IMG/VR virus record: IMGVR_UViG_3300025889_000992
Span: 1-23,107 of that record
DNA length: 23,107 bases
From: a virus
Reading direction: 5' to 3' (one strand)
Below, piece by piece: positions 17,488 through 21,070 of this stretch (its first letter is position 1; each line of letters starts with the position of its first letter). Position numbers and translations under genes: made by a program. Below the pieces are notes generated by a model. The model was not told the DNA's origin and did not search any database. It saw nothing but the letters and a program-made list of their open reading frames with translations.

Positions 17488-18198
17488 ATGGCATTGCCAC
17501 AACTGACTACACCTGAATATGATATAGTTATTCCGTCAACGCAAGAAAAAATTAAGTTTAGACCTTTCTTGGTTAAAGAGGAGAAAATACTTTATTTTGC
17601 GTTAGAAGGACGAGATGAGTCGCAGATTTATGATTCTATTGTTAAGATTTTAGAATCATGTATTTTGACGCCAAACATCAATGTAAATAAGTTTACTTCA
17701 TATGATTTAGAGTATCTTTTTCTGAAGTTAAGGTCTAAGTCTGTCAGTGAGATTATCAATATTAACTTGAAACACGCTGATTCATCAGAGTGTCAAGCAT
17801 CTACTTCGGTGCAGATTAACATTGATGACGTCAATATAAAGTTTAACGAAGAACATGTGAATGTAATTGAAATAGGCAATGGTATTGGAATTAAAATGAA
17901 AGACCCAGATGCCGCTGATATCATGAAATTAAATAATAATTTACCAGAAATAGATCGTTTATTAGAAGCACTATACAGATGTGTTGATTTTGTATATGAT
18001 GAAAAAGAAACATATGACGATTTTTCTAGAGAAGAATTCAATGAGTTTATTGACAAGATGAGCCAGGGGCAATTTCAAAAAGTTGTAAAGTTCTTTGAAA
18101 CTATGCCGAAGGTATCACATGAAGTTAGTTATACTTGTAAAGAATGTGGAAAAGAAGAAACAGTTGTAATTGAGGGCATGCAAAGTTTTTTTACCTAA
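17488..18198 (+). CDS. 26: Baseplate hub assembly protein gp26-like (tail chaperone, zero-frame product)
   Basis: This 236-residue protein resembles T4 gp26 (208 residues), the Pfam T4 baseplate protein family needed for hub assembly. The N-terminus 'MALPQLTTPEYDIVIPSTQE' and 'IKFRPFLVKEEKILYFALEG' are typical. The middle has 'CILTPNINVNKFTSYDLEYL', and a Cys pair 'YTCKECGKEE' lies near residues 213-222. The latter is only a half zinc site within this chain. The zero-frame reading ends 'MQSFFT', where TTTTTTT forms a phased slippery site, so a longer -1 product is expected. A GTGAGGT lies 8 bases before the ATG. The gene directly precedes the tape measure, the usual place of a tail assembly chaperone. 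Confidence 0.82.
   Translation: MALPQLTTPEYDIVIPSTQEKIKFRPFLVKEEKILYFALEGRDESQIYDSIVKILESCILTPNINVNKFTSYDLEYLFLKLRSKSVSEIININLKHADSSECQASTSVQINIDDVNIKFNEEHVNVIEIGNGIGIKMKDPDAADIMKLNNNLPEIDRLLEALYRCVDFVYDEKETYDDFSREEFNEFIDKMSQGQFQKVVKFFETMPKVSHEVSYTCKECGKEETVVIEGMQSFFT
18186..18192 (+). promoter_or_regulatory. Programmed -1 frameshift slippery heptamer (T TTT TTT)
   Basis: Seven consecutive T residues fall exactly as X-XXY-YYZ in the gp26 frame: the zero-frame codons are AGT TTT TTT ACC TAA. Slipping back one base after the second TTT gives TAC CTA AGC and so on, open for 61 codons to the stop at 18375-18377. No Shine-Dalgarno is evident for internal starts at 18225 or 18246. A short inverted repeat, ATGATGC-A-GCATCAT (18246-18260), lies about 54 bases downstream, and a weak 5-bp hairpin lies at 18216-18232. 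Confidence 0.8.
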
Positions 18199-18377
18199 GC
18201 CTCAGTCATGATAACTTGTATAACATGTACAGAGTAAATTTTAACATGATGCAGCATCATAATTATAGTTTGACTGAGTTGGAAAATATGATGCCCTTTG
18301 AAAGAGAAATTTATGTTCAATTGTTGATGCAATATATTAAAGAAGAAAACGAACGATTGCAGCAGGAAAAAATGTAA
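18192..18377 (+). CDS. T-like C-terminal extension of the gp26 frameshift product (gp51-like candidate)
   Basis: This -1 frame encodes 61 residues after the slip, beginning YLSLSHDNLYNMYRVNFNMM and continuing 'QHHNYSLTELENMMPFEREI' then 'YVQLLMQYIKEENERLQQEK'. The 'SLTELE.M.PFEREIYV.LL...IKEE' pattern is one I associate with a short conserved reading frame after the hub chaperone in T4-like marine phages and with T segments of tail chaperones. The fusion would be 296 residues (235 from gp26). The frame contains possible internal starts (ATG at 18225 and 18246), but they lack good ribosome sites. If made only internally, it would be a 43-residue protein from 18246. The stop TAA overlaps the tape-measure ATG by one base. 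Which T4 protein it corresponds to (gp51 is the obvious thought) is uncertain. Confidence 0.75.
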   Translation, partial: YLSLSHDNLYNMYRVNFNMMQHHNYSLTELENMMPFEREIYVQLLMQYIKEENERLQQEKM

Positions 18378-20134
18378 TGGCACTACCTAATCCTAATCCT
18401 AATCCTAATGAACAATCCATTTCAGAATCAGGAAAGAGTTCAGAATCAGGAAATTTCTTATCTTCTATAGATAAGAAATTTTCAGTTTTAATTTCATTGA
18501 ATAAACAGTTGCTTCAATCACAAAAAAGTTTTATTGAAATATTGAGATATGAATTTTTTGAACAGAAAAAAAGAAGAAGGCCAAATAAAGATCCTGCTGG
18601 AGGTGTAGGTGGAAAAGATAGTTTATTTGATAGTTTGAAAAAATCTCTTGGAGGTTTCAAATTTGGCGATCTTTTATTTGCAGCTTTAGCGGCTTGGGCT
18701 ACAGGTTTAGATGATTTTCTTCAAATTAAATTATTACCGAGGATTATGAAGGTAATATCAAAACCATTTTTGGCTTTTGGTAAAATGTTAGACTCTCTAT
18801 TCTCAAAAATTTTAAAACCATATAGAGTAGCTTCTGAGACAATTAAAAAAGGCATCGGAGAGATAAAGACTTTTTTTACAAATATTTACGAAAACGTGAC
18901 CCGCGTAACTGGCTCTATAAAAGAAACTTTTGGTAAAATTACTGGTGCAATAAAAGAAGGACCGTTTGCTAAAGTATTTGGCGCAATAGGAAAATTCTTC
19001 AAATCAATCGTGGCTCCTCTATTGCCAATGGTTAAATTAATAGCAAGATTGTCAGGAGTCGGGACCATTCTTTTTGCAATCTTTGATTTCTTTAAAGGTT
19101 TTATGGCAGGGTTCAAAGAGGGAGGAGTACTTGGAGGAATTAAAGAAGGGTATCGTGAAATAATCCGTGGCTTAATAACAAAACCTCTCGATCTACTTAA
19201 AGATTTATTTGCTTGGGCTGCCGAAAAACTGGGGTTTGAAAGTTTCGCAGAAACTCTTAATTCGTTTTCATTCACTGACTTATTCAATAAATGGGTAGAA
19301 AAAATCGATGAAATTGTTTCTGGAATAGCAAATTGGTTTAAAGCTCTGTTTGCAAACCCAAAAGAAACACTTGAAAAACTGGTTGGAGATACGATTGAAT
19401 GGATTACTAATTTCTCAACCAAAGTTTATGAGAAATATATTGAACCTGCTATAACCTGGGTAACAGAAAATTTTTCAACTGTTTCTGATTCGATTGGAAA
19501 TCTGGTTGGAGATGCGATTGATTGGATTACTAATTTCCCAACCAAAGTTTATGAGAAATATATTAAACCAGTTGTAGACTGGGCGAAGAAATTATTCTCT
19601 TCTGAGGATGAAAAACCGGAGGATGTAGGAAAACTATCATTAGGGGATTCATTTTCTGATGTCAAAGTCATGTTTGACGATTTCAGTATAACTGATATTA
19701 CGAAAAACATTTTAGCAACTGTTGGTGAAAAGATAAACAATGTTTTTCAATGGTTAGCAGAAAAAATTAATGCGATTAAATGGTTAGGACCAAAACTTTC
19801 TCCATTAATGGCAGAAGCGGGCATCACCGCTGGTTCATTTTTTGGTGCAAAAAACTTAAAAAGATTTTCAGCTGATGCTGAAGGAAATAGAGTTCTAGAT
19901 GAAAGTACGATTGAAGCTCCTCCTCCTGATAGCGCTAGTTTAGAAAGTAGTACTAGACAAATGTCTCAATTTAGAGAAGCGAGCGCAGCAAGTTCATCTG
20001 TAGTCATCAATAATAATGGTGGTAATACTCAACAAAACAACGTTAGCAAAACGACACATACAGGAGGCAGCCCTAACGTTAGAGTAGATCAAGTAGGTGC
20101 TGCTTATGCTGGTTGGCTTTCGCTCGCACGCTGA
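18377..20134 (+). CDS. 29: Tape measure / baseplate hub protein gp29-like
   Basis: At 585 residues it is almost the length of T4 gp29 (590 residues), and it sits directly after the chaperone genes as tape measures do. The composition fits: rich in Lys, Phe, Leu and predicted helix, with hydrophobic segments near residues 95-112 ('FGDLLFAALAAWATGLDDFL') and 216-245 ('LIARLSGVGTILFAIFDFF'). The N-terminus has 'PNPNPNPN' and a repeated SESG unit. Residues about 335-400 contain a near-identical duplication around 'WITNFSTKVYEKYIEP' and 'WITNFPTKVYEKYIKP'. The C-terminal 80 residues are polar, with Asn/Ser-rich stretches (VVINNNGGNTQQNN), and end 'AGWLSLAR'. T4 gp29 occupies the tube lumen and sets its length. 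The start overlaps the upstream stop by one base. Confidence 0.8.
   Translation: MALPNPNPNPNEQSISESGKSSESGNFLSSIDKKFSVLISLNKQLLQSQKSFIEILRYEFFEQKKRRRPNKDPAGGVGGKDSLFDSLKKSLGGFKFGDLLFAALAAWATGLDDFLQIKLLPRIMKVISKPFLAFGKMLDSLFSKILKPYRVASETIKKGIGEIKTFFTNIYENVTRVTGSIKETFGKITGAIKEGPFAKVFGAIGKFFKSIVAPLLPMVKLIARLSGVGTILFAIFDFFKGFMAGFKEGGVLGGIKEGYREIIRGLITKPLDLLKDLFAWAAEKLGFESFAETLNSFSFTDLFNKWVEKIDEIVSGIANWFKALFANPKETLEKLVGDTIEWITNFSTKVYEKYIEPAITWVTENFSTVSDSIGNLVGDAIDWITNFPTKVYEKYIKPVVDWAKKLFSSEDEKPEDVGKLSLGDSFSDVKVMFDDFSITDITKNILATVGEKINNVFQWLAEKINAIKWLGPKLSPLMAEAGITAGSFFGAKNLKRFSADAEGNRVLDESTIEAPPPDSASLESSTRQMSQFREASAASSSVVINNNGGNTQQNNVSKTTHTGGSPNVRVDQVGAAYAGWLSLAR
18386..18453 (+). repeat. Short tandem repeats in the tape-measure N-terminus
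   Basis: Four perfect copies of CCTAAT (18386-18409) encode PNPNPNPN. Immediately after, the 15-mer TTCAGAATCAGGAAA occurs at 18421-18435 and again at 18439-18453 (18-base offset), encoding SESGK and SESGN. Both unit lengths are multiples of three, so expansion or contraction keeps the frame. Confidence 0.9.
19379..19569 (+). repeat. Near-identical 68-bp direct repeat, 123-bp period, in tape-measure gene
   Basis: Copy 1 (19379-19446) and copy 2 (19502-19569) differ at only 4 of 68 positions by my alignment. The period is 123 bases, or 41 codons. Both encode 'LVGD.I.WITNF.TKVYEKYI.P'. The spacer between copies (19447-19501) is not obviously duplicated elsewhere. Confidence 0.9.
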
Positions 20135-20185: not shown

Positions 20186-21070
20186 TTAGTCGTCTTCAGC
20201 GAGTTGCTTGAAAAAATCAAGACTGTCATCACCAGACGACTCTTCGCTCTCCATTACAGGAGCGGCAGCTCGACGAGGTTCAGAAGGAAAGTCCTCCTCG
20301 TCGAGGTCTTCAGCAGTGCTTGACACTGCGGAAGCTCCAAGTACACGATTGAGTCGAGCCTGCAACTCGGCATATGACTTGAAGTTCTTACGATCTAGAA
20401 ACTCCTGAAGAGAATATTGAGTTGACCAGATCTTTTCGAGTTCATCGTCATCATCGGCAAGAGCACTTGGAGAATCAAACTCAGACTTATCATAGTTACG
20501 ATAACCTTCAACATTGCGAATCTTCATCTTGAAGTTTGCGCCTTCCCAGAAGTCAAAAGGATTGACTGTTTCTTCATCCTCAAACTCTGGATTCATCTGA
20601 TCATTCAGCTTATCGAAGATCTTCTTACCAAACTTGTATAGGAATACCTTACCCTCGTTCTCAGGATGAGAAGGATCCTTTACAACATAGATGTTTGAGA
20701 TATAACTTAGGCGACGCTTCTGCTTACGAGCCTGTTCCTTACCAGCTTCATCGCCACGATTCCATAGCGTTGAGTTATACTCGCCGACTGGATCCTTTTC
20801 GTTGAGAGTGGTAAGTGAGTTCTCAATGTACCAGCCACCTGGACCCTGGAACCCATGAGAGAAAACTCGTACCCAAGGAAGATCTTCGCCCTTGGGAGAA
20901 GGAAGGAAACGAATCACTGCATATCCGTTACCTGCCTTATCAACTTCTGGCTGCCAAAAACGATTGTCAGCAGAACCTTGATTATTACTTTGAACCTTGG
21001 TCGTCTCTTCGCGTAGTTTATCGGTTAGAGACTTACGTGAACGCTTGAGTTCAGCAAAAGATGTATTCAT
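20186..21070 (-). CDS. 32: Single-stranded DNA-binding protein gp32-like, lacking zinc cysteines
   Basis: This 294-residue protein matches T4 gp32 (301 residues). The basic N-terminal 'LAST'-type cooperativity segment is 'LKRSRKSLTDKL' (residues 8-19). The core has 'RFWQPEVDKAGNGYAVIRFL' (37-56), 'LPWVRVFSHGFQGPGGWYIE' (64-83) and 'RRLSYISNIYVVKDPSHPEN'. In the T4 family a zinc subdomain uses one His and three Cys. Here His72 remains, but the positions expected for Cys are Ser85, Asp93 and Gly96, and the protein has no Cys at all. The C-terminus (about 258-294) is strongly acidic and ends 'DDSLDFFKQLAEDD', the region that recruits replication partners. GGAG lies 8 bases before the ATG. A promoter is upstream and a strong terminator downstream. 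Confidence 0.93.
   Translation of the reverse strand: MNTSFAELKRSRKSLTDKLREETTKVQSNNQGSADNRFWQPEVDKAGNGYAVIRFLPSPKGEDLPWVRVFSHGFQGPGGWYIENSLTTLNEKDPVGEYNSTLWNRGDEAGKEQARKQKRRLSYISNIYVVKDPSHPENEGKVFLYKFGKKIFDKLNDQMNPEFEDEETVNPFDFWEGANFKMKIRNVEGYRNYDKSEFDSPSALADDDDELEKIWSTQYSLQEFLDRKNFKSYAELQARLNRVLGASAVSSTAEDLDEEDFPSEPRRAAAPVMESEESSGDDSLDFFKQLAEDD

Follow-up and report, generated by a model that had tools for sequence, protein, structure and literature searches.

A probable programmed -1 frameshift between gp26- and gp51-type chaperone segments upstream of a probable tape measure gene in a T4-like phage

Organization of the gp26 locus

The tail assembly chaperone locus described here belongs to a marine relative of phage T4 and lies in a 23,107-base virus record (IMG/VR record IMGVR_UViG_3300025889_000992), hereafter called the window. 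It comprises a gp26-type gene, a poly-T slippery heptamer at its 3' end and a -1 frame extension that runs into a probable tape measure gene (Table 1). The 236-amino-acid (aa) gp26 product matches Pfam PF12322 T4_baseplate (1.1e-55) and phrog_150 (6.7e-60). Its last codons, ...CAA AGT TTT TTT ACC TAA, place the slip codons at residues 234-235 of 236, followed by a single sense codon (ACC) and the stop at 18196; an earlier interpretation made from the window alone (the sequence-only reading) had put the site six codons from the end of the gene, which is too far. The in-phase heptamer and the 61-codon -1 frame ending on the first base of the next gene, both named in that interpretation, can be read directly, and its predicted product sizes of 236 aa for the short form and 296 aa for the fused form are correct.

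The -1 frame translates into YLSLSHDNLYNMYRVNFNMMQHHNYSLTELENMMPFEREIYVQLLMQYIKEENERLQQEKM (61 aa) and ends at a TAA (18375-18377) whose last base, 18377, is also the first base of the ATG of the downstream gene. The locus has a G/GT-type anatomy, with a short form and a C-terminally extended long form encoded together directly 5' of the probable tape measure gene. In-phase heptamers by themselves are common, 34 of them occurring in the 7,196 codons of the window. Only the one at 18186, which sits at the end of its gene, has a long open -1 frame behind it (61 codons, against at most 22 for the other 33). An in-phase TTTTTTC also lies eight codons before the end of a 294-aa gene on the minus strand (20186-21070), where the -1 frame is open for four codons only.

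Several tape-measure families of PHROG match the 585-aa product encoded downstream in part (best 2.9e-13); from these matches and the position of the gene after the chaperone, it is probably the tape measure protein. The start of its gene carries four exact tandem copies of CCTAAT (18386-18409), encoding PNPNPNPN.

Table 1. Features of the chaperone locus in the window
Feature	Position	Strand	Basis
gp26-type baseplate hub / tail assembly chaperone, short form (G-like, TAC-N), 236 aa	17488..18198	+	Pfam, PHROG, tblastn
Shine-Dalgarno (SD)-like GAGGGC, putative frameshift stimulator	18172..18177	+	9 nt from last G to heptamer
Slippery heptamer T_TTT_TTT	18186..18192	+	in gp26 phase, X_XXY_YYZ
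-1 frame extension (T-like, gp51 C-terminal domain), 61 codons + stop	18192..18377	+	PHROG, hhalign, pN/pS
585-aa gene, probable tape measure protein	18377..20134	+	open reading frame list, partial PHROG matches, position

Conservation of the slippery heptamer and the -1 frame

A tblastn search with gp26 found a relative in 701 phage records. The relatives sampled first comprised 84 loci (80 from IMG/VR, 4 from phage records); the IMG/VR loci were the window's top matches and hence a biased sample, and the non-redundant subset comprises 45 loci. All 84 relatives carry T_TTT_TTC or T_TTT_TTT in the gp26 frame near the stop with an open -1 frame beyond it, which rules out coincidence and supports the frameshift proposed in the sequence-only reading. 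With the window included, the heptamer is in phase in 85/85 loci (83 TTTTTTC and 2 TTTTTTT), and the codon before the slip codons ends in T in every one. Phe234 is encoded by TTT in 45/45 non-redundant loci and Phe235 by TTC in 43/45, the latter contrary to the gene-wide preference for TTT (405 TTT, 181 TTC). These codon choices indicate that the heptamer nucleotides are constrained beyond the protein that they encode.

The extension is under purifying selection, with a ratio of nonsynonymous to synonymous polymorphism (pN/pS) of 0.15 overall and 0.30 over codons 2-11. Across 43 codons, stops interrupt the -1 frame in 0/82 loci and the other two frames in 81/82 and 82/82. The conserved peptide starts directly after the slip site.

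Putative stimulatory elements around the site

Upstream of the heptamer, a Glu-Gly codon pair is written mostly as GAGGGN or GAAGGG in the relatives. GGG follows GAA in 7/11 loci and GAG in 2/34 (Fisher p = 2e-4, uncorrected for relatedness), against a background of 777 GAA and 366 GAG among Glu codons. This pairing suggests, from codon choice, that an SD-like run ~9 nt before the heptamer is selected for.

Predicted RNA folding peaks in the 40 nt immediately after the heptamer (mean z -1.66 over the 45 loci), compared with mean z values of -0.82 to +0.35 at other offsets. RNAalifold gave no consensus structure for the whole family because two hairpin types are present, and splitting the set recovered both. 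The first is a 5-bp GGUCC/GGACC stem with 9 both-side-changed cells (2/500 shuffles as high); the second is an 11-bp stem with 6 such cells (0/500 shuffles as high), the shuffles keeping relatedness in both cases. Two unrelated covarying hairpins occupy the same 40-nt position in different relatives, which suggests turnover of a stimulatory RNA element. An Rfam search returned no match. In the window the SD-like element is present and no hairpin was detected, while a hairpin is supported in many relatives.

Relation to T4 gp26 and gp51

T4 gp26 (208 aa) covers phrog_150 positions 14-235, and T4 gp51 (249 aa) covers positions 13-280 of 282, corresponding to the short form plus the extension. 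Both T4 proteins match Pfam T4_baseplate, and the gp26 profile aligns with gp51 in hhalign (E 7.6e-07). In PHROG, the 61-aa extension finds phrog_634 ('baseplate hub assembly catalyst', 1.1e-24) as well as the phrog_150 C-terminus, and its profile aligns with the C-terminus of T4 gp51 (E 4.8e-08), bearing out the profile relationship anticipated for this segment. By these alignments, the short form is homologous to T4 gp26 and the full 296-aa fusion to T4 gp51. The earlier suggestion that the extension might be a gp51 counterpart holds insofar as it aligns with the gp51 C-terminus, but gp51 corresponds to the whole fusion rather than to the extension alone.

T4 genes 26 and 51 are separate and lie on opposite strands. 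Since gp51 spans both the short form and the extension, T4 encodes the two forms as paralogous genes. The 3' end of T4 gene 26 reads GAG TTC TTT GAG, with no slippery run; the run is lost in T4.

Structure prediction for the long form used a T4-type gp51, whose model has extra C-terminal helices (residues 196-248) and gave no meaningful match against the PDB. The gp26 model, which is confident (predicted local distance difference test score 89.4), matched T4-like hub proteins among viral models, as expected. Its best-probability Foldseek match in the PDB is the HK97 tail assembly chaperone 2ob9 (probability 0.51, TMt 0.43, E 1.7, not significant), with the related 3fgx ranked lower (probability 0.18); both entries are phage tail assembly chaperones (PMC9603447). 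This comparison of a predicted model is no more than suggestive of a shared HK97 chaperone fold. A PDB sequence search found no homologue, and NCBIfam gave nothing over its cut-off.

Breadth among T4-like phages

By their gp6-type wedge gene, the nearest named relatives of the window are Melnitz, HTVC008M and Mosig. The heptamer is present in the Pelagibacter phages HTVC008M and Mosig, and the length of the run varies: Mosig has T6C, the window T7, and HTVC008M and Melnitz T8. The heptamer also occurs in most outgroup phages examined, and was found in P-HM1, Aeromonas phage 65, two Schizotequatrovirus phages, Menderavirus Marzo, Rhizobium phage RL2RES (TTTTTTG), Stenotrophomonas DLP6 and Pseudomonas Milchi.

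Annotation of the extension in cyanophage records is inconsistent: it appears as gp51 with varying starts or as a short hypothetical protein (S-T4), and a fusion is annotated in none of the cyanophage records examined. The 'gp51' entered as a free gene in many cyanophage records is most likely the tail end of a fusion.

Origin of the long form

Judged on comparative sequence evidence, programmed -1 ribosomal frameshifting very probably produces the long form, yielding a G/GT-type tail assembly chaperone pair of 236 and 296 aa. We infer that most ribosomes would halt at the TAA at 18196 and release the gp26 short form, and that a minority would slip by -1 on T_TTT_TTT, pass the stop and read 61 further codons to give the gp26-gp51-type long form. 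On the model of lambda G/GT, the domain common to both forms would bind the tape measure protein and the extension would bring in components of the tail tube or hub, and the ratio of short to long form would be set by the efficiency of slippage.

Several observations weigh against this interpretation. Vibrio phages YC (Ackermannviridae) and K452, like Aeromonas TSW001, lack T_TTT_TTN but retain the -1 frame extension; a TAATG overlap is present in YC and K452, and TSW001 has neither heptamer nor overlap. TAATG/TGATG stop-start overlaps occur at the same place in several outgroups, and in heptamer-less distant phages the extension could in principle be translated separately. Folding of the window RNA downstream of the heptamer is unremarkable (z +0.35, and z -0.08 over 78 nt), and the T run (T7 in the window, T8 in its near relatives HTVC008M and Melnitz) would also permit RNA polymerase slippage. 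The overlaps would suit an extension that is a separate small gene (gp51) with its own start, whose translation would follow the gp26 stop by coupling or re-initiation, as would the ATG at extension residue 4 in 32/45 non-redundant loci and the many cyanophage records that annotate gp51 as its own coding sequence. Such a gene is nevertheless very unlikely to account for the locus. No ATG, GTG or TTG precedes the conserved block in 6/45 non-redundant loci, Methylophilales phage Melnitz among them, only 10/45 have an ATG behind an SD-like element, and conservation begins upstream of the putative starts. These counts answer, in favour of frameshifting, the earlier call to look for independent starts in relatives. 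The in-frame starts of the window begin with TTG 18216, followed by ATGs, and initiation at this TTG or the next ATG would remove the conserved beginning of the extension. No SD-like element was found before any in-frame start of the window extension, as the sequence-only reading had noted of its internal ATGs. A separate gene would also leave the synonymous constraint on the heptamer unexplained, and T4 gp51 contains the full fusion. The -1 frame is open, coding and without a conserved independent start, as -1 frameshifting requires.

The long T runs and the lack of a downstream hairpin in the window would fit RNA polymerase slippage, in which an extra U in some transcripts gives rise to the long form. 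As a general explanation this is highly improbable: in most relatives the run is T6C, which is short for polymerase slippage, and the T6C relatives keep the exact X_XXY_YYZ phase, the SD-like element and, in many, a hairpin. The missing hairpin and the longer T run in the window make it a minor alternative there. In the Pelagibacter/Methylophilales phage branch, the closest to the window, there seems to be no stimulatory hairpin of the kind seen in cyanophages, and T runs are longer (T7-T8; Mosig T6C). It is unlikely, though less so than for the family at large, that polymerase slippage makes the long form of this branch partly or wholly; if it does, T4-like phages would make the G/GT pair in three ways, by ribosome slip, polymerase slip and gene duplication. 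A homopolymer sequencing error, with the two frames really forming one gene, was also considered, since such errors are typical of T homopolymers and T4 gp51 is encoded by one fused open reading frame. It is refuted by the same two-frame layout in the isolates P-SSM2, Melnitz, HTVC008M, Mosig and P-HM1 and in all sampled metagenomic loci.

Comparison with known systems

Both gp26 and gp51 figure among the hub assembly chaperones in a 2010 review, which gives gp51 as essential and of unknown function (PMC3004832); according to a 2016 review, long-tailed phages 'except T4' widely conserve G-T frameshifting (PMC5009743). The mechanism is already known in kind for T4-like phages, and the window is a new example of it. 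Vladimirov, Gautam and Davidson (2022, Virology 566:9) reportedly identified the T4-like chaperone genes. As represented in the papers that cite it (PMC10885494, PMC12846349), with poly-T slippery sites in T4-like chaperones credited to it by a later paper, that study makes out of date the claim of the sequence-only reading that such a pair departs from the standard description of T4-like hub assembly. What is added here is the breadth of the slippery site, the putative stimulatory elements and their apparent loss in the window.

Lambda G/GT and HK97 gp13/gp14, both made by -1 frameshifting, likewise pair a short protein with a rarer long fusion. The window differs in its gp26/PF12322 family, its poly-T site and its contractile-tailed T4-like phage, and a fold common to these chaperones is only weakly indicated. 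The chaperone locus of phage Adele (Vandenendeviridae/Andersonviridae, PMC12846349), likened here by its description only, also has short and long chaperones with a poly-T -1 frameshift between them, predicted from comparative data, but has a GTTTTT motif and belongs to other phage families. T4 gp26 and gp51 are of the same protein family as the window products, gp26 being the short form and gp51 the long form with the C-terminal extension, whereas T4 has two opposite-strand genes without a slippery run in place of a single locus. The comparison links these T4 hub factors, about which little is understood, to the general G/GT system of chaperones, and points to two ways of obtaining the pair: T4 uses two genes, whereas marine and other T4-like phages would use frameshifting.
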